This document shows positions 17,278-46,043 of a stretch of 64,000 nucleotides of DNA, one piece after another; within the stretch, counting starts at the first letter, position 1; every line of letters starts with the position of its first letter. Origin of the DNA: Hymenobacter taeanensis. GTDB lineage: Bacteria; Bacteroidota; Bacteroidia; Cytophagales; Hymenobacteraceae. The position numbers and the translations under genes are program-made. The stretch lies in assembly GCF_013137895.1 (NCBI RefSeq), contig NZ_CP053538.1, positions 743,501 through 807,500 on the forward strand, in the 5' to 3' direction. The notes beneath the pieces are model-generated. The model was given only the letters and a program-made list of their open reading frames with translations, was not told the DNA's origin and made no database searches.

Positions 17278-18819
17278 CTAGCCAACGTAGTTGCGGCCAG
17301 CGTGCTCAGCGGCCGTTTGTTCCGCTTCCAGTTTACGTAAAATATCAAGCGTGTACTGCCACAGATTCTCGTAAGGAATGATTTCGATTTCGCCGTAGGC
17401 CTCTCCCGGCTGCGGCGCAACTTTGAGCCGTTCCAGCAGTGGCAGTGCCTTTTGCTCACAAGCCTGCGACATGAAGTTTTCTTTCACCGTCAGCAGCAGC
17501 ATCCGAAAGAAGAGTTGACTGCGGAGCGTAGCGGGGTTGCGCAAATGCCGTTGCTCGTACTTACGCAAGCCTTCCAAACGCGCCAGCAATCCTTCAATAT
17601 CCCGGCGTCGCAGAAAGTACAGGAACTGCAGAATGAGTATGGCCACGTTATACCCTTGCTTGTCCCGGCTGTAGTCGGGCACGGTTTGCACCAACTGCGC
17701 AAAGTGCCGCATCTTGAGCGGCGACTGCTCGGGCTGAATCAGTTGAATGTAGGCTTCATAGAGCTCCCAGCGCTGCTGAGCCGCGGGGCGTTGCTTACGA
17801 TAATAGGGGTTGCGCCGGGCCTGCTGCAACAGGTCGTAGGCCTGTCCGTACTGCGCCGCGTGCATGGCCAGCAACAGGTAAATCTCGAGGTAATAAAACC
17901 AGTTACCAGATGAGTAATGGAAATCTTTGAAATACTCCTCGGCAAGCTGCAGGCCCTTTTCAGCTCTTCGGCATTGCAAGTGCGCATACACGCTCATGTA
18001 GTTGTTGAAGCGTTTGTCAAACCGCTTTTCGTTAATTTTCCCCTGCTTAAGGGCTTTTTCAGTGGCGGTAGTCAGCCGAATGATTTCTTCGTAATTCCCG
18101 GTTAGCTCCTCCCTCGACATTTTAGTCACGTACAGGAAGTAGAACGTATTGTAGCTTTTAGCCTTTTTGTGCAATAACTCTAGCCGCTCCAGGTAATCAG
18201 GAAGTTGTTTCAGAATAAACTGCCGCCAGCGCACCTTGTGCTGAGAAAACACCTTTATCTCATAGTAAAGTTGTTCCGCCTCATCTTCCAGCTCTAGCAG
18301 TTTCTGCAGCTCATTGAGCTGCTTGTTCATGACCTTAAAGCGGGCTGGATTACGCATTTCCGCGTATAAAATGCGCAGTGTACGTGCGCACATTACCGCG
18401 TACTGGGTCAGCTCAGCTTCCGTGGCCAGGGTTAGCGCTTTGCGGTATAGTCTTTCCGCCAGCTTATATTCAGCTTCCCCACTCAAAATTTTGGCCTGGT
18501 GCAACAGGCCCAGGCAGTGCTGCTCATGGCGGCGAGACACCACGTGGCGCGCATCAGTATGATCCAGGAAATACAGATGGTTCAACAGTTTCTGCTGTAC
18601 CCTCGACTTAAGCTTCCGGAAAGTCGTCTGGCTTTTTGCTTCCGTGCTCCCATATAAGGTTTTAACTATCTTGTTCTGAGTAATGGTAGGGTCGCTTTCC
18701 AATAAGCGCACTAACTGCAAGTCTTTGCTAGTCCCATTTCGGTCAGAAAAGTCTAAAAATGGTAACACGGCCAGGCGCCTATCTGTCACAATTTTTACCA
18801 GTGTAGTTAATTCGTCCAT
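17278..18819 (-). CDS. Large hypothetical helical (TPR-like) protein
   Basis: The 513-residue protein has no signal peptide or membrane helix. The N-terminal 90 residues look like a winged or helical DNA/RNA-binding module (LLESDPTITQNKIVKTLYGS, then FRKLKSRVQQKLLNHLYFLD). The rest is a long series of helices rich in Leu, Tyr, Arg and Gln with TPR-like spacing (AEYKLAERLYRKALTLATEA, YGQAYDLLQQARRNPYYRKQ). I do not recognise a named family. It may be a cytoplasmic regulator or scaffold, but this is inference from composition only. It is divergent from the tandem-repeat protein at 19187, with 367 bases between, so the two could share a regulatory region. Confidence 0.7.
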   Translation of the reverse strand: MDELTTLVKIVTDRRLAVLPFLDFSDRNGTSKDLQLVRLLESDPTITQNKIVKTLYGSTEAKSQTTFRKLKSRVQQKLLNHLYFLDHTDARHVVSRRHEQHCLGLLHQAKILSGEAEYKLAERLYRKALTLATEAELTQYAVMCARTLRILYAEMRNPARFKVMNKQLNELQKLLELEDEAEQLYYEIKVFSQHKVRWRQFILKQLPDYLERLELLHKKAKSYNTFYFLYVTKMSREELTGNYEEIIRLTTATEKALKQGKINEKRFDKRFNNYMSVYAHLQCRRAEKGLQLAEEYFKDFHYSSGNWFYYLEIYLLLAMHAAQYGQAYDLLQQARRNPYYRKQRPAAQQRWELYEAYIQLIQPEQSPLKMRHFAQLVQTVPDYSRDKQGYNVAILILQFLYFLRRRDIEGLLARLEGLRKYEQRHLRNPATLRSQLFFRMLLLTVKENFMSQACEQKALPLLERLKVAPQPGEAYGEIEIIPYENLWQYTLDILRKLEAEQTAAEHAGRNYVG

Positions 18820-19186
18820 TTGAAAAGGCTCTTTTTAGATAATAGCGGCTATTATACTAATATAAGTTGAGGTAATAGGCATGTCACAAAAACAGCATTA
18901 CTATCCTTTCGCTACTATGAACTTCCACTCATCTTTGTACCAGATAGATTTTGCTCAAATAACCCGTTCTATGTCACAACAATGGCGCAAAACGACCGGA
19001 TTATTTATAGTTTTTCCTTTCTCGATCTTACTTTCTTAAGTCTAAAAAGCATTTATATTTATTTTACAGCTCAAGACAGGGCAGAATTTCACGTCACGTT
19101 TACCCAGCTTCTTTCCTTTACGCTGGCTGGTTTGGTCCCCACATTTGTGTCAGTCAACCACTTGAACCACAAATATTTTCCATACC
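18820..19186. other. Divergent AT-rich intergenic region upstream of the repeat protein
   Basis: This 367-base region is AT-rich, most of all at 18890-19070. It holds a TATATTTA stretch near 19050 that matches seven of eight positions of the -7 consensus but lacks a clear -33 partner. An open frame (18982-19302) runs through it and on into the repeat gene in another frame; its composition and overlap suggest it is not real. No RNA fold was identified. Confidence 0.4.
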
Positions 19187-19663
19187 ATGTTGAACCTACT
19201 CGCCCTCGCTCTTCTGCAGTTTTCCAGCCTCACTTCGTTCAGCACGCCTTCACAGGCCCGGAGCGAGCAAGCTACTACAGTTCAGACCGCACGCACTACT
19301 GAGCATGGCACGAGCGGCTGGGGCGATGGTTACCTGGCAGCCGGAGAGCACGGCACCAGCGGCTGGGGCGATGGCTACTTAACAGTAGCTGACCATGGCA
19401 CCAGCGGCTGGGGTGATGGTTACTTAGCGGCTAACGACCACGGTACCAGCGGCTGGGGTGACGGTTATTTAGCCCTCCTTGACCACGGCAAAAGCGGCTG
19501 GGGCGAAAGCGACATAGCTGTTAGTGGTGAGCACGGCACCAGCGGCTGGGGCGATGGCTACTTAACAGTGGCCGACCATGGCACCAGCGGCTGGGGTGAT
19601 GGTTACTTAGCGGCTAACGACCACGGCACCAGCGGCTGGGGCGATGGCTACCTCACGGCCTAA
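19187..19663 (+). CDS. Exported tandem-repeat protein, 8 x 15-residue HGTSGWGDGYL units
   Basis: This is an unrecognised 158-residue protein. ATG 19187 is the only possible ATG start, since TGA 19163 closes the frame upstream. Residues 1-24 are a hydrophobic signal-like segment (MLNLLALALLQFSSLTSFS, then TPSQA), unusual in lacking basic residues. Residues 39-158 are eight head-to-tail units with consensus D/E-H-G-T-S-G-W-G-D-G-Y-L followed by three variable residues. Unit 5 is 16 residues and diverged (HGKSGWGESDIAV). The invariant His, Ser, Trp and Gly could suit metal or carbohydrate binding or a small repeat fold; a multi-core precursor is conceivable, but no modifying enzyme or protease is adjacent. 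No T9SS sorting domain. An oligopeptide-type transporter begins 95 bases downstream. Confidence 0.75.
   Translation: MLNLLALALLQFSSLTSFSTPSQARSEQATTVQTARTTEHGTSGWGDGYLAAGEHGTSGWGDGYLTVADHGTSGWGDGYLAANDHGTSGWGDGYLALLDHGKSGWGESDIAVSGEHGTSGWGDGYLTVADHGTSGWGDGYLAANDHGTSGWGDGYLTA
19301..19660 (+). repeat. Tandem repeat array, 45-bp units (8 copies)
   Basis: Units begin at 19301, 19346, 19391, 19436, 19481 (48 bp), 19529, 19574 and 19619. The DNA copies differ mostly at third codon positions (for example cat/cac, ggt/ggc), while the encoded core is nearly fixed. Units 2-4 and 6-8 are especially alike, pointing to a block duplication of about 183 bp period. Confidence 0.95.
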
Positions 19664-19758
19664 AATCTTCTTTCACCTGTGGTGCTTTTCTCACGCACGA
19701 GTTGTCTCCTAAAACGTGGTAACTTGCCCGGCAGCAGTGCTTGCACAGTTGTCCGTTC

Positions 19759-21486
19759 ATGAAAAGAAGTATACTTGGTTTGTTTCTGCTGTTGTGGAGT
19801 GGTCTGGTAGGCTGCTCCACAACAGTTTCATCTCCACCTGATGCGGTGCGCATCCGCTGGGCTCGTGACCCAGAAAACCTCGATCCACTGATTGTCAAAA
19901 CTTCAGGGGCACTTGAGGTAATTAGCTTGCTGCACTGCAGTCTGTTGCAGCCCAGCGAAGCGAAAGGGGAGTTTCTACCCTGGCTGGCCCAGGAGTTTCC
20001 GAGCGTTAAACGCCTCGGCGACTCCCTGATGCTGGTTACTTACCAGATTCGTCCGGAAGCCACCTGGGACAACGGCACTCCGGTATCAGCCAGCGACGTG
20101 GTATTTACCGTGAAGCTGATGCACTGCCAGGGTCTCCCCATCGAGCTGGCGCAAGCCCGCTTTGGTTTCGTAGAAGATGTAATTCCAACCCCCGGCAGCC
20201 CCCGCCGTTTTTCGCTGCTGTGTCGGGGGCAGTCTATTGACTACATCCGTAGCTCCGGCGACTTCAGCATTTTGCCTGAGTATGCGCTAGACCCCAAACA
20301 TACATTGCGGGCCGTCTCAGTAGCCGAAATGCACAAGCCCCTACCGGTGGTGCAAGCCTTCGCGAAGCGGTATTTAGCGGCGCAGTTTTCCCGTCACCCA
20401 GAGCGTGTTCCGGGCTGTGGGCCTTACAATTTAGCGAGTTGGCAACCCGGCCGGCAGCTCACTCTTACCCGAAAACCAAAGTGGTGGGCCGACCGAGTAT
20501 CGCCGCAACCTCCGCAGCTGCAGGCCTACCCGCACGGCATCAACTACCAGATCATTCCTGATGCTGCCACTGCCGTATTAGCCCTGCGCCGGGGTAATAT
20601 TGATTTATACCCCTTGATTCCGGCCACAGAGTTTGCCCGCTTGCAGCAGTCGCCCGCTGACCGGCGGCACCTGCAGTTTCTTACCGCCGACTCTTACGAG
20701 TTTTTGGCAGCCCATTTCAATACCAGGGCTCCGTTATTACAAGATAGGCTCACCCGGCAGGCCCTTACGCATTTATTCAACGTTCCGGCGCTCATTCAGG
20801 CTACGCAACTAGGCCACGCTTACGCTAGCGTTGGCCTCATTAGTCCTCGTGTAAAGCAGTTCTATAATGATAGTCTGCCCCTGCTTAAGTACAGCCCAGA
20901 GCAAACTGCCCAATTACTGCGGCAAGCGGGGTGGCAGCAGCAACCCGAACGTAACTGGTCTCGCATTACCGAGGCCGGCACTCAGCAGCAACTGCGGCTC
21001 AGCGTGAGTTACCGTGCCGGCGAGCCTTCCTTTGAAACAGCGGCCTTACAGTTTCAGGCCGCTGCTGCCGCCGTTGGTATCCCTATTGAGTTGCGCCCTA
21101 CGGAGGCCTCTTTGCTTAACCGGCAGCAACAGCAAGGGAGCACTCAGATTAGTTTGCTTAACCTGAGCGGCAACCCATTTGCCTACGACTTCACCCCTAT
21201 TCTGCACTCTCAAAGCACAGGGCTATATAACATATCAGGCTTTGGCACGCCATCGAGTGACCGACTCATTGAAGCCATTGCTAAGGAAGACAACCCGGTG
21301 GCGAAGGCTCGTTTGCTCCGTAGGTTTCAGCAGCTGATTTATGAGGAGCGGCCACTTACGGTGCTGTATTTCCTACAATACCGGATAGCCGCAGCACGGC
21401 GTTTGGGTAAAATTGCGGTATCGGGTCTGAAACCTGGGTATATCGTTACCAGCATTCATTCAGATTCTGTGGCTCAGGAACGCTGA
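19759..21486 (+). CDS. ABC transporter substrate-binding lipoprotein, SBP_bac_5 (oligopeptide/nickel type)
   Basis: ATG 19759 gives a 575-residue lipoprotein: signal MKRSILGLFLLLWSGLVGC with the lipobox cysteine at 19. The longer frame starts at a TTG. The body is a family 5 extracellular solute-binding protein, as shown by an early RIRWARDPENLDPLIVKTSG, then DNGTPVSASDVVFTVKLMHC near residue 110, and a late NPFAYDFTPILHSQSTG. These proteins deliver oligopeptides, dipeptides or nickel to DppBC-type permeases. The two permease genes follow at once (1 bp, then a 4-bp overlap), so the three form an operon. It lies just after the tandem-repeat peptide gene, which makes peptide binding an attractive but unproved idea. 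Confidence 0.85.
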   Translation: MKRSILGLFLLLWSGLVGCSTTVSSPPDAVRIRWARDPENLDPLIVKTSGALEVISLLHCSLLQPSEAKGEFLPWLAQEFPSVKRLGDSLMLVTYQIRPEATWDNGTPVSASDVVFTVKLMHCQGLPIELAQARFGFVEDVIPTPGSPRRFSLLCRGQSIDYIRSSGDFSILPEYALDPKHTLRAVSVAEMHKPLPVVQAFAKRYLAAQFSRHPERVPGCGPYNLASWQPGRQLTLTRKPKWWADRVSPQPPQLQAYPHGINYQIIPDAATAVLALRRGNIDLYPLIPATEFARLQQSPADRRHLQFLTADSYEFLAAHFNTRAPLLQDRLTRQALTHLFNVPALIQATQLGHAYASVGLISPRVKQFYNDSLPLLKYSPEQTAQLLRQAGWQQQPERNWSRITEAGTQQQLRLSVSYRAGEPSFETAALQFQAAAAAVGIPIELRPTEASLLNRQQQQGSTQISLLNLSGNPFAYDFTPILHSQSTGLYNISGFGTPSSDRLIEAIAKEDNPVAKARLLRRFQQLIYEERPLTVLYFLQYRIAAARRLGKIAVSGLKPGYIVTSIHSDSVAQER

Positions 21487-21487
21487 T

Positions 21488-22546
21488 ATGCAGTTAAGCC
21501 GATTCTTGTTTCTTCGGCTTGGCAGAACCGCCGTGGCGGCCTGGGCTATCGTCTCGTGCATCTTTCTGCTTACACGCCTGACTTCCGGCAACGCCGTTAT
21601 TCAATCGGCCCTTGATGAGCTCAGCTCCCAGGCAACTATCAGCAACGCAGGCCTGAGTGCTACTGAAACAGCCTTGCGCCACCGCTATGGCCTGGATGTG
21701 CCCTTGTTTTATGTTTCCTTCTCTACTTCTCCCCCCGCCACGGGGTGGCAGTGGCATGGTACTTCCAACCAGTACCACATATGGCTACAAGGGCTATTAC
21801 ACGGTGATTTAGGCACTTCTTACCGGGAGGGCACTGCCGTAACGGAGCTTCTGAGCGCCGCCTTGCGCTACACTCTTCCGCTTACCATGTTAGCGGCATT
21901 TCTTGCCATTGTTTTTACCCTGGAGCTTAGTAGCTGGCTGGGTTATCACCTTAAGTGGCGCGGCGTGGTACTAGCACTTATGCACGCCCTGCAGTCAGTA
22001 CCTCTTTTTGTGGTGGCGCTAGGGCTACTGCTGCTATTGGCCAACCCCGATGCCTTGGCTTGGTTTCCGGCGTATGGCTTGGCTAATCAGGAAACTGTTT
22101 CTTCGTGGGCAGATGGCCTAGGCCAGTATCTGTACCACTTAGCGCTGCCATTATGTAGCCTGGTGGCGGTTAGTGTGCCAGGGCTGCTGGTTCAGCTAGA
22201 TGCCGCTATTCAGCAGGAGCGACAGGCATTGTACGTTGCTACGGCCCGGGCCAAAGGCGCAACGCCGCGTGCTGTAGTCCGGCGCCATATCATCCGTAAT
22301 GCCTTATTAGTGGTGCTGCCTTTATTTACCGAACTCCTGCCGAGCTTGGTAACCGGCTCAGTGGTGGTGGAAATGATATATGCTCTGCCGGGTATGGGCC
22401 GGCTCTTGGCAGAAGCCGCCTCTACGCAAGACTATCCGGTTCTGCTTGGGGCCGTGCTGTTGGTATCGTTCGTTCGGCTGCTCAGCCAATTACTTGCAGA
22501 CCTGCTCTACCAGTGGGCAGATCCGCGCATTAGGCTCCCGGCATGA
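21488..22546 (+). CDS. ABC transporter permease, DppB/OppB type
   Basis: The protein has 352 residues and six predicted membrane helices. The first helix (about 12-30) leads to a long periplasmic loop (about 30-115), which includes HRYGLDVPLFYVS and a DLGTSYREG segment typical of DppB. The cytoplasmic EAA-like motif for coupling to an ATPase is TARAKGATPRAVVRRHIIRN. The end VEMIYALPGMGRLLAEA is the usual family signature. It starts one base after the stop of the binding protein and overlaps the next permease by ATGA, so translation is coupled. The substrate is set by the binding protein and remains unknown. Confidence 0.9.
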   Translation: MQLSRFLFLRLGRTAVAAWAIVSCIFLLTRLTSGNAVIQSALDELSSQATISNAGLSATETALRHRYGLDVPLFYVSFSTSPPATGWQWHGTSNQYHIWLQGLLHGDLGTSYREGTAVTELLSAALRYTLPLTMLAAFLAIVFTLELSSWLGYHLKWRGVVLALMHALQSVPLFVVALGLLLLLANPDALAWFPAYGLANQETVSSWADGLGQYLYHLALPLCSLVAVSVPGLLVQLDAAIQQERQALYVATARAKGATPRAVVRRHIIRNALLVVLPLFTELLPSLVTGSVVVEMIYALPGMGRLLAEAASTQDYPVLLGAVLLVSFVRLLSQLLADLLYQWADPRIRLPA

Positions 22547-23535
22547 AGCGCAAGCAGTGGAGCACGCATGTAGCCGCTTGGGGCTGGCTCTTGCTAGTAG
22601 GCCTAGCTGCCCTAGCGGCACCCTCTGTTTCGCCCCCGCCTGATTTGCTCAATACGCTGGTGCCGCCTTTTCACATGCCAAACTGGCTCGGCACCGATAC
22701 TGTAGGCCACGATATTTGGAACAGCTTGCTAGCTGGCGCGCGCTCTACCCTACTCATCAGCTTGCCCGCGGCCTTACTCTCTAACTTGCTGGGTGGCTGC
22801 CTGGGTGTGGCAGCTGGGTTCTTCGGGAACAGCCGCCTGCGTGTTGCAACAAGCTGGTGCATAGGCAGCCTGGCCGCCGTGCTTGCGCTGGTGGCAGGTA
22901 TTGGTTTACTCTGGGACTCCCCCTCGTTACTCCTGCTATTCACTATTGGCATCGGAGGAGCTGCTGGAACCCTTTTGCACCGTACCCACTGGGGCCGCCG
23001 GCCACTGCCCGTGCCACTAGACACATTTGTTCAGTCACTTATTGCCCTGCTTGATTCAATTCCGCTGTTGGTATTGGTTTTGACCGTGGCGGCCATTCAG
23101 CAGCCTTCTCCGCTGGGCTTGGTAGTGCTGCTCACTGTTACCTGCTGGACCACCCCCGCCCGCCTGCTACGCGCCGCCACCTTGCGCACGGCTTCTCTGC
23201 CCTACGTGCTGGCGGCAGAAGCCGCCGGTATTCCGCCGCTACAAATCGTGCGGAAGCACATAGCTTTAAACGTATGGCCGGTGTTGCGAATACGCATTCC
23301 GCTTAGCATTGCACTGATAATAGGCCTAGAAACCACCCTGGCGTTTTTGGGAGTAGGGCTGCCACCGGACGTAGCCAGTTGGGGGCGGCTGTTAGCTTCT
23401 TCTCGCTTAGCCCCAACTGCCTGGTGGCTGATTGGGTGGCCTAGCGCTGCTCTTTTTCTGACCATTTGGGCCTTACAGACCCTGGGGCAGCCTAAAAATT
23501 TAGCAGTAGCTACACACAATGATGTCACAAAATGA
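22543..23535 (+). CDS. ABC transporter permease, DppC/OppC type
   Basis: The protein has 330 residues. An N-terminal helix is followed by LGTDTVGHDIWNSLLAGARS, the well-conserved DppC segment (G-T-D-x-x-G-R/H-D). Five further membrane helices follow. The EAA loop reads AAEAAGIPPLQIVRKHIALN and the end has GLETTLAFLGVGLPPDVASW. It pairs with the preceding DppB-type permease through a 4-bp overlap. Neither OppD nor OppF type ATPase genes follow; the next sequence is AT-rich noncoding DNA. The importer must therefore use ATPases encoded elsewhere, or be incomplete. Confidence 0.9.
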   Translation: MKRKQWSTHVAAWGWLLLVGLAALAAPSVSPPPDLLNTLVPPFHMPNWLGTDTVGHDIWNSLLAGARSTLLISLPAALLSNLLGGCLGVAAGFFGNSRLRVATSWCIGSLAAVLALVAGIGLLWDSPSLLLLFTIGIGGAAGTLLHRTHWGRRPLPVPLDTFVQSLIALLDSIPLLVLVLTVAAIQQPSPLGLVVLLTVTCWTTPARLLRAATLRTASLPYVLAAEAAGIPPLQIVRKHIALNVWPVLRIRIPLSIALIIGLETTLAFLGVGLPPDVASWGRLLASSRLAPTAWWLIGWPSAALFLTIWALQTLGQPKNLAVATHNDVTK

Positions 23536-23745: not shown

Positions 23746-24009
23746 ATGTGGAACGGCACACAGGAAATAATAGCCGGATTACTCAGCTGTTCGCAGTTGC
23801 AAAAACACATGGGCTCCTCGCTCTTTCAGTATAGTCAGTGCCACGCTAACCAGGTATTACCCCTGCACACAGCAATGCCACAGACGCCTGCCGTACCCAC
23901 TGGGTTCACGACAATTGATGGAGATATAGTAGCCTATAGAACTGGAATGGAAGCCATTGAAAATGGCACTGCTGTTCTGGTAGGAGGACTGCTCGTCGGA
24001 GCGGTCTAG
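23746..24009 (+). CDS. Small hypothetical ORF (87 residues) ending in a Gly/Val-rich hydrophobic tail
   Basis: The frame runs from ATG 23746 to TAG 24009. The first half is polar with two cysteines and several Gln/His; the end (ENGTAVLVGGLLVGAV) is a short hydrophobic, glycine-rich stretch reminiscent of small membrane-active peptides or bacteriocin tails, though no family is recognised. Evidence that it is real: a long AT-rich promoter-like region precedes it, a plus-strand rho-independent terminator follows 96 bases after the stop, and no other gene lies between. Against it: codon use is not strongly biased. It may belong to the neighbouring repeat-protein/transporter locus. Low confidence. 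Confidence 0.35.
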   Translation: MWNGTQEIIAGLLSCSQLQKHMGSSLFQYSQCHANQVLPLHTAMPQTPAVPTGFTTIDGDIVAYRTGMEAIENGTAVLVGGLLVGAV

Positions 24010-24105
24010 TCGCGAGACATTGAATATGAAAATACAGACTCAGGTGCCTGCAGTTGCTCGCAGTGCCGCCTGATCTAAAGGTTGTTGCAATAGGTGTGTG
24101 AAAAT

Positions 24106-24133
24106 CCCGCAGGCGTTGTCTGCGGGTTTTTTT
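24106..24133 (+). terminator. Rho-independent terminator after the small ORF
   Basis: The stem cccgcag (24106-24112) pairs with ctgcggg (24120-24126) over a 7-base loop, followed by T7. The T tract shows plus-strand direction, so some transcript from 23.5-24.1 kb ends here. Confidence 0.8.
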
Positions 24134-44684: not shown

Positions 44685-46043
44685 ATGCCTAGTCGCTTAC
44701 TAACTGCGCTGTTCCGCCCCATAGATTGCGCGTGGCTGGTGGCGTTCCGAATAGGAGCCGGCACGTTGTTAGCGCTTGAAATGGCCGGAAGCCTAGCTCT
44801 GGGCTATTACCGCGAGTATACGCAGCCTAAATTTCATTTCTCCTACCTCTGGTTTGACTGGTTGCCGCAGTGGCCATCCGCTGTAGGCCTAGGCCTGCAT
44901 TTTGGGGCTGTAGCTACCGGAATAGCTGTGGCCGTAGGCTGGCGCTACCGCTTAAACGCCTTTCTATTGACGGTTTGCTACACATTGTTGTTTCTGGCTG
45001 AGCAAACGCGCTACATCAACCATCTGTACCTGTATTGCCTGATTGCCGCCTGGCTTTGGCTGTTACCTGCTCACCGTGCTTGTTCAGTTGATGTACGCCA
45101 GGGGCGAGTGTCCCCTGCATTCACCGTTCCGGCCTGGGTGCGCTACGTGTTTATCTTTCAACTAAGCTTGGTGTACTTCTACGCGGGTATAGCAAAACTC
45201 AACCCCGACTGGCTCCTGGCCCGCCCACTTAGCGTCTGGATGGCTCCTAAAGCGGTTTACCCAGTATTGGGGCCGGTGCTGGGGCATTGGCTTACCCCCT
45301 GGGTTATGAGCTACGCAGGCTTAGCCTTTGACCTACTGGCAGCCCCCCTGCTGCTCTGGTCGCGCACTCGCCGCTGGATGTTTGCGGCAGCCGTGCTATT
45401 TCATCTTTCCAACGTCATCATCTTTGGACTGGGCACGTTCCCGTGGTTTTCCCTGATGATGACGGCCTGCATCTATTTCCCACCTTACTGGCCCAGGCAA
45501 GTGCGTGGCCTACGTCGCTGGCTGAGCCCGCGCTTGCCGGTGGCAGCTGTGCGCCGACTGAACACGCTCACCAGCGTACCGCGGCACGCTGGTCTGCTGC
45601 TTGCTGGCCTGGGCCTCTACGCCACGGTTCAGCTGCTGGTGCCATTGCGGGCCTTTCTGTACCCCGGTGATGTGCACTGGACGGAAGAGGGCCACCACTT
45701 CGCCTGGCATATGATGCTCCGTAGTAAGTCAGGCTATATCAGCTTTCGGGTAGTACTGCCCAATGGGCGTACAGAAGTAGTAGCTCCCGGTACTTACCTC
45801 ACGCCACGCCAGTGCAATAAATTAGCCGCTCAGCCTGATTTAGTTCTTCAGTTTGCACACTTCCTCGCCAAGGAATACCACCGGCGGGGCCTAGGCCAGG
45901 TACAGGTCTATGCCGACTCGTATCTTCAGCTGAACCGCCGGCCACCGCAGCCGCTGGTTGCTCCCACCACTGACTTAGCCGCTCAGCCCCGCACGTGGGC
46001 GCCTTCGCCTTGGATTATGCCCGCTCCTCCGCTCGATGAGTAA
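44685..46043 (+). CDS. HTTM domain-containing protein (vitamin K-dependent gamma-carboxylase-like)
   Basis: The 452-residue protein has four to six membrane helices in its first 300 residues. The HTTM pattern is visible: CAWLVAFRIGAGTLLALEMA, FHFSYLWFDWLPQW, TRYINHLYLYCLIAAWLWLL and FQLSLVYFYAGIAKLNPDWL. A soluble C-terminal beta-rich part follows (GHHFAWHMMLRSKSGYISFR). In animals the relative VKGC carboxylates glutamates using vitamin K and oxygen; bacterial HTTM proteins mostly have unknown roles. Whether the catalytic lysine of VKGC is present cannot be decided by eye. It follows the antiporter in the same direction with a 69-base gap. Confidence 0.8.
   Translation: MPSRLLTALFRPIDCAWLVAFRIGAGTLLALEMAGSLALGYYREYTQPKFHFSYLWFDWLPQWPSAVGLGLHFGAVATGIAVAVGWRYRLNAFLLTVCYTLLFLAEQTRYINHLYLYCLIAAWLWLLPAHRACSVDVRQGRVSPAFTVPAWVRYVFIFQLSLVYFYAGIAKLNPDWLLARPLSVWMAPKAVYPVLGPVLGHWLTPWVMSYAGLAFDLLAAPLLLWSRTRRWMFAAAVLFHLSNVIIFGLGTFPWFSLMMTACIYFPPYWPRQVRGLRRWLSPRLPVAAVRRLNTLTSVPRHAGLLLAGLGLYATVQLLVPLRAFLYPGDVHWTEEGHHFAWHMMLRSKSGYISFRVVLPNGRTEVVAPGTYLTPRQCNKLAAQPDLVLQFAHFLAKEYHRRGLGQVQVYADSYLQLNRRPPQPLVAPTTDLAAQPRTWAPSPWIMPAPPLDE

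Follow-up and report, generated by a model that had tools for sequence, protein, structure and literature searches.

In the Rap-Phr systems of Bacillus and phages, which belong to the RRNPPA group, the gene for a helical-repeat receptor adjoins a gene for a propeptide, whose signal lies at the C-terminus, sometimes in several copies, and is imported by an oligopeptide permease. Phr propeptides with up to eight copies are described in the available part of one study (PMC11343458), and the large surveys of re-imported peptides with TPR receptors covered, according to their available portions, Firmicutes together with viruses and mobile elements (PMC10075063, PMC9765709). A review draws the general division, in its accessible text, between small molecules in Gram-negative and oligopeptides in Gram-positive bacteria (PMC5007282). 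Our literature searches found no such system in Bacteroidota; they covered mostly titles and abstract openings, with most subscription papers and all bioRxiv preprints outside their coverage. Here, we analyze a locus of Hymenobacter taeanensis within a 64,000-nucleotide stretch of DNA (NZ_CP053538.1, positions 743,501 to 807,500; hereafter “the window”), which probably encodes an RRNPP-like peptide signaling system in a Gram-negative member of Bacteroidota, built around a multi-copy pheromone precursor. Its protein-coding features are:

17278..18819, - strand: helical-repeat protein of 513 residues, candidate intracellular peptide receptor and regulator, from its orthologs and predicted fold
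19187..19663, + strand: candidate multi-copy pheromone precursor of 158 residues, an open reading frame (ORF) with an ATG start
19187..19258, + strand: residues 1-24 of the precursor, its conserved hydrophobic N-terminus, from position counts in 129 precursors
19301..19660, + strand: array of eight head-to-tail units, residues 39-158, with unit 5 degenerate and unit 8 short
19759..21486, + strand: oligopeptide-binding lipoprotein of substrate-binding protein (SBP) family 5 (PF00496, E 2.8e-46), with a lipobox-like LVGC
21488..22546, + strand: OppB-type permease (PF00528)
22543..23535, + strand: OppC-type permease (PF00528)

The locus resembles Rap-Phr in the predicted helical-repeat fold of the candidate receptor, in the propeptide gene adjoining the receptor gene, and in a putative C-terminal signal that is often multi-copy; import by an oligopeptide permease is proposed here by analogy. 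Unlike Rap-Phr, the system is found in Bacteroidota rather than Firmicutes, its genes are divergent, and the importer genes are part of the locus. The candidate receptor carries an extra N-terminal domain and has no sequence match to solved Rap chains, while the precursor lacks basic residues at its N-terminus and carries a Gly/Trp core in up to 20 copies.

An earlier interpretation of the window, made from the letters alone (the sequence-only reading), had described the 158-residue protein as eight 15-residue repeats of no named family. Eight head-to-tail units are present, and units 1-4, 6, and 7 each span 15 residues with an unchanged core [DE]HGTSGWGDGYL; the degenerate unit 5 (DHGKSGWGESDIAVSG), however, has 16 residues, and unit 8, with which the protein ends, has 14. 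Tandem Repeats Finder scored the array at 318, 413, and 364 for periods of 45, 90, and 138 bases, respectively, and the rest of the window yielded a single further row with a score of 54. The 90-base period implies that pairs of units were duplicated as well. Between units of the window gene, differences in the nine-residue core were mostly synonymous (proportion of synonymous differences, pS, 0.44; of nonsynonymous differences, pN, 0.035; unit pairs are not independent of each other), in agreement with the proposal that the third-position differences reflect selection on the peptide. The lack of a named family also held, as the best Pfam match was a sub-threshold Pax7 (21.6 bits, cut-off 27) and NCBIfam gave no match.

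Single-sequence searches with the window protein recovered nothing from the protein database, genome contigs, viral contigs, or plasmids. When the whole genomes of relatives were searched, 12 of 59, including its own, contained a match at E < 0.001; the divergent neighbor lay beside the match in all 12 loci, accompanied by the SBP gene in 11 (L010 had the neighbor only). A profile of 30 short precursors retrieved 63 database proteins, none with a functional name or a Pfam domain, from organisms including Hymenobacter, Adhaeribacter, Rufibacter, and Nibribacter, as well as one record labeled Janthinobacterium lividum. The apparent orphan status of the window protein is thus attributable to the fast evolution of its repeat unit.

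We used the divergent neighbor (17278-18819) as an anchor for finding loci. Orthologs were present in 112 of 120 Hymenobacter genomes, with 119 matches, of which 116 were taken as loci; the second matches in genomes G090, G011, and G127 were not treated as separate loci. A divergently oriented small ORF began 340-385 bases from the anchor start codon in 113 of the 116 genus loci, and in 104 the SBP gene came next, 53-151 bases behind it, so that the homologs do adjoin the same transporter, a check that the sequence-only reading had put forward. The 12 loci without an adjacent SBP gene mostly run into a contig edge or hold an additional regulator copy, and the three that lacked the small ORF (L132, L135, L136) were extra regulator copies with no adjoining SBP gene. 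Among the 17 named loci, 16 had the precursor. In G011 and G090 (loci L112 and L114), two regulators lie about 4 kb apart, the precursor adjoining the first and the SBP gene the second.

Outside the genus, a script picked precursors in 16 of 39 loci, with doubt over L204 and L216. Thirteen loci retained the succession of anchor, small ORF, SBP, and OppB: 12 (L184-L186, L189-L197) belong to four further genera of the same family and one, L187, to another family; L188 had the small ORF and no SBP. In L192, L193, L195, and L196, the regulator genes are tandemly duplicated beside one precursor and one importer. Within the order, 76 of 291 genomes had the anchor family, which was sparse in the class (14 of 295 genomes, three being Hymenobacter). 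In none of the eight anchor-less genus genomes was the SBP found, a comparison without its own positive control. Their OppB paralogs were merely ~30% identical, compared with 45-52% for the OppB retained in all 12 divergent anchor-bearing genomes that served as the positive control. The absence in these eight genomes may represent one shared loss.

The precursors share a common plan, in which an N-terminus with the consensus ML[EN]L(L/I)A(L/I)AL(L/F)Q is followed by a spacer rich in Ser, Thr, Pro, and Asn and then by at least one core that fits the pattern G-[ST]-[GS]-G-W-G-[DGN]. Across the 129 compiled precursors, position 9 was L in 116 and position 11 was Q in 120, and the N-terminus was hydrophobic throughout, hydrophobicity being a selection criterion of the compilation. 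The hydrophobic segment that had suggested export to the sequence-only reading is real, and the protein is probably exported or membrane-engaged, but it lacks the basic residues expected in a classical Sec signal: 124 of the 129 have no Lys or Arg among the first 12 residues. Since the script demanded a Trp after residue 18 in addition to the hydrophobic N-terminus, the presence of Trp in 129 of 129 is partly by construction. The unbiased count comes from a search with the N-terminus only, which found 78 ORFs, all 78 with GxxxW; GxxGW was present in 75 of them, versus 24.2 expected with the same residues shuffled. Five frames (L064, L081, L083, L084, L188) were set by hand after a wrong choice, and two false picks (L136, L215) were dropped.

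Leaving out five precursors cut by contig ends, the number of core copies per precursor ranged from 1 to 20, with a single core in 25 of the 108 complete genus precursors. A gene with more copies would yield more peptide from each transcript. Where a gene had just one core, it lay at or near the C-terminus, the final unit of many multi-unit genes had no spacer, and precursors as short as 46-55 residues occupied the same locus position. Mapped onto a FastTree phylogeny of the regulator, where 39 entries were single and 85 multiple, this state required at least 11 changes. The nine-residue cores were on average 97.7% identical within a gene versus 55.5% between species, with 53 distinct majority cores among 83 multi-unit genes, and the spacers, 1-20 residues long, were less alike (68.9%). 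The pN/pS ratio across cores was 0.056, again from unit pairs that are not independent. To judge from these sequence comparisons, the pattern looks like that of a repeated, released peptide under selection, homogenized inside each gene. Within-array decay, as in unit 5 of the window, was also seen in L034, where one unit without Trp (HGNGLGEGH) lies among seven intact ones.

Core differences were correlated with regulator differences when the SBP was allowed for (partial Mantel r 0.43, p 0.001, n 96), and were hardly correlated with SBP differences when the regulator was allowed for (0.04, p 0.13, n 96); the test used the first 190 SBP residues and removes the effects of shared descent only partly.

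The 513-residue protein is predicted to be all-helical (predicted local distance difference test, pLDDT, 88). In a VIA-align comparison of the predicted fold with 956 chains, ranks 1-10 were Rap and NprR; a Foldseek search with the same fold was not significant. With a profile of 96 sequences, nothing in the PDB, the solved Rap chains included, was matched at E up to 1. NCBIfam returned no receptor model, and the hits to TPR were all weak. No DNA-binding domain was recognized in the protein, unlike in the RRNPPA transcription factors of AimR-AimP arbitrium, NprR-NprX, and PlcR-PapR, and its N-terminal 115 residues, modeled alone (pLDDT 77), gave no significant fold match. With RRNPPA systems the locus shares the pairing of a receptor gene with an adjoining gene for a small propeptide (in 113 of 116 genus loci and 16 of 39 others) and, by prediction, a cytoplasmic receptor with a TPR-type helical-repeat domain; no sequence kinship of the receptor to known members was detected. 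Because no sequence relationship was found, the export signal is unclear, and a DNA-binding domain is unproven, we do not file the system as an RRNPPA member.

The importer genes resemble Opp/Dpp ABC importers in comprising an SBP_bac_5 protein and two BPD_transp_1 permeases. The SBP reading frame is open from a TTG at 19741, with the ATG at 19759 the likelier start, and its best NCBIfam models were of the NikA family, far below threshold (85.8 bits, cut-off 393). Unlike in Opp/Dpp, the locus has no ATPase gene. PF08352 matched one 692-codon frame elsewhere in the genome, an unlinked OppDF-type ATPase that completes the Opp/Dpp set of a family 5 SBP, two permeases, and an OppD/F ATPase; relatives of this ATPase were found in 20 of 20 genomes tested, with and without the system. 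As it is unlinked, its partnership with the importer is presumed.

An alignment of 113 upstream regions of the precursor revealed two conserved modules, and a third module and a small-RNA-like element lie behind the permease genes:

18883..18938, + strand: promoter module 1, exact match to GTCAC-N16-TCCTTT-N24-TTTGT
19093..19148, + strand: promoter module 2, exact match, 38 bases before the precursor start codon
23689..23744, + strand: promoter module 3, with one mismatch, immediately after the permease genes
23750..24133, + strand: candidate small RNA with a variable 5' part, a hairpin, an invariant block, and an intrinsic terminator

The module pattern had 57 exact matches in the 113 upstream regions; of 81 spacings tried, only 16/25 likewise matched exactly (25 matches), the remainder giving none. 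The whole genome contained two exact matches, both upstream of the precursor, and three sites with one mismatch, one of them module 3. Allowing up to three mismatches gave 38 matches, compared with 29 when the pattern was reversed; only the best matches are therefore meaningful. Among the 17 named loci, 13 had a module at the position of module 3 (at most two mismatches), and L245, L248, and L249, which come from two other genera, have GTTAC as the box, with unchanged spacing. The TTTG box is similar to TAnnTTTG, the -7 element of Bacteroidota, as given in the available text of PMC9723704. The two further one-mismatch sites are possible regulon members: one (G000:C1:4234711-4234766; L229, L234) lies upstream of a TPR protein continuing into histidine-kinase domains, at a distance of 230 bases, and the other (G000:C1:4299303-4299358; L230) precedes a 116-residue zinc-ribbon-like ORF.

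Behind the hairpin that follows module 3 lies an invariant block (AGGTTGTTGCAATAGGTGTGT). In the window the block (AGGTTGTTGCAATAGGTGTGTGAAAA) begins at 24079, with the terminator stem-loop at 24106-24126; the 5' end of the candidate RNA (23750) would follow from the position of module 3. Block and terminator were present in all 14 aligned sequences (the window and 13 named loci). When 27 sequences were folded to a consensus, 7 of its 18 pairs were kept with both sides changed, two of these also showing many broken cells. At up to two mismatches, the block was detected in 35 of 120 genus genomes, compared with none for the reversed control, and in all 35 a copy lay about 5 kb from the regulator on the same contig, with an additional copy on another contig in G017. 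At this threshold it was found in none of the eight regulator-less genomes and was also missed in 77 regulator-bearing ones; in L241, from another genus, the central part is present. No Rfam family matched the element. Its sequence features are most simply read as those of a small RNA. Arbitrium also acts through a small RNA, whereas the RNA-like element here sits behind permease genes.

As a candidate output gene we rejected the small protein encoded at 23746-24009 (ending IDGDIVAYRTGMEAIENGTAVLVGGLLVGAV), whose ORF occurs in the window and in only 5 of the 16 named loci examined; we prefer the RNA because block and terminator occur in all aligned sequences. This ORF, inside the candidate RNA gene, ends IDGD..GTAVLVGGLLVGAV and is also seen in L137, L139, L148, L151, and L152; it is perhaps a decaying or lineage-specific peptide.

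The gene order, the pattern of conservation and selection, the homogenized repeats, the fold resemblance, the modules, and the RNA element are the observations from which a mechanism can be drawn; we infer its biochemical steps of export, cleavage, uptake, binding, and DNA contact. The conserved hydrophobic N-terminus would carry the propeptide to or through the inner membrane, and proteases would free several Gly/Trp-rich oligopeptides around HGTSGWGDG. The released peptide would accumulate outside the cell and be re-imported by the binding lipoprotein, the adjoining permeases, and the unlinked OppDF-type ATPase. Inside the cell, it would bind the helical-repeat protein of the divergent gene, and the bound regulator would act on the three GTCAC modules, yielding more precursor as feedback and the small RNA as output. 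Unequal exchange among repeats would keep units alike within a gene while species drift into separate dialects.

The same molecules could instead form an uptake-control loop without social signaling: the precursor would serve as a bait, its fragments would tell the cell about proteolysis, diffusion, or the supply of peptides, and the regulator would adjust the importer, the information concerning the surroundings rather than kin. Such a loop would suit the sharing of the locus with importer genes and the joint loss of binding protein and regulator, but species-specific cores (53 among 83 multi-unit genes) fit a dialect better than a generic bait, and the cores track the regulator and not the binding protein; we consider it unlikely. 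A leader followed by repeated cores is also the known layout of multi-core precursors of ribosomally synthesized and post-translationally modified peptides (RiPPs). The units would then carry modifications, on Trp, Thr, or Asp for instance, and would be set free as a natural product, with the regulator and importer serving immunity or control. This is very improbable: the N-terminus is hydrophobic, unlike a RiPP leader, and Pfam revealed no RiPP enzyme in the seven scanned neighbors (GNAT, TPR, OmpA/PD40, regulator, SBP, OppB, OppC), unlinked enzymes lying outside the search. The sequence-only reading had taken the lack of an adjacent RiPP enzyme or protease to weaken the idea of a multi-copy peptide precursor, an objection that lapses because an unmodified pheromone precursor needs no RiPP enzyme; the evidence now favors that option. 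The role of the divergent receptor-like gene, the promoter modules, and the small-RNA-like element had escaped the sequence-only reading.

Of its other suggestions, a metal- or sugar-binding repeat fold or a surface polymer, neither fared well. A structural or ligand-binding envelope protein would account for the repetition, for the His and Asp in the window's own unit, and perhaps for the NikA-family models being the SBP's best, far sub-threshold, matches. However, His is absent from many ortholog cores, which led us to reject metal binding, and the single-core orthologs (25 of 108) led us to reject a surface polymer; with proteins of only 46-55 residues at the same place, we give an envelope role a slightly slimmer chance than a RiPP. 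The short gap to the SBP gene (53-151 bases) would, finally, suit a translated leader, in which the position of the ribosome on Gly/Trp codons controls the importer genes and the peptide itself has no role. The amino-acid sequence is under strong selection while synonymous positions vary freely (pN/pS 0.056); this, the conserved N-terminus, and the lack of a + strand terminator-like site between 19663 and 19741 make a translated leader scarcely credible.

If the signaling system that we favor is real, Bacteroidota would own a private signaling language, and one would have to ask how such peptides get across two membranes. The 53 majority cores among the 83 multi-unit genes, each beside its own receptor, would constitute a natural experiment on dialect evolution, and the RNA element would offer a ready read-out for the response to synthetic peptides.

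A filter for divergent small ORFs whose N-terminus is hydrophobic and has an acidic residue at position 2 or 3 was applied to 32 distant regulator homologs (L198-L222, L291-L297). Five (L216, L293, L295, L296, L297) had such an ORF and the other 27 had none by this filter, which passed 1 of 237 other long ORFs. The C-termini of these small ORFs differ, as in L293 (GGGVVIVESGGD) and L297 (GGVVVITGVGV). Judged by sequence, they are possibly other signal types of the same architecture, which, if so, would predate the Gly/Trp core. We regard as not quite an even call the broader view of an ancient Bacteroidota pheromone system, in which a receptor that has an RRNPP-like fold but no recognizable sequence kinship is paired with a propeptide whose N-terminus is conserved and membrane-engaging and whose C-terminal signal changes freely; Hymenobacter arrays of up to 20 units would evolve in concert as dialects with a small RNA output, and other orders would use unrelated signals. 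Similar small ORFs without the early acidic residue were seen in L218 and L219. Unlinked to the peptide locus, the window also encodes, at 44685-46043, an HTTM protein with a vitamin-K-dependent gamma-carboxylase lumenal-type domain.
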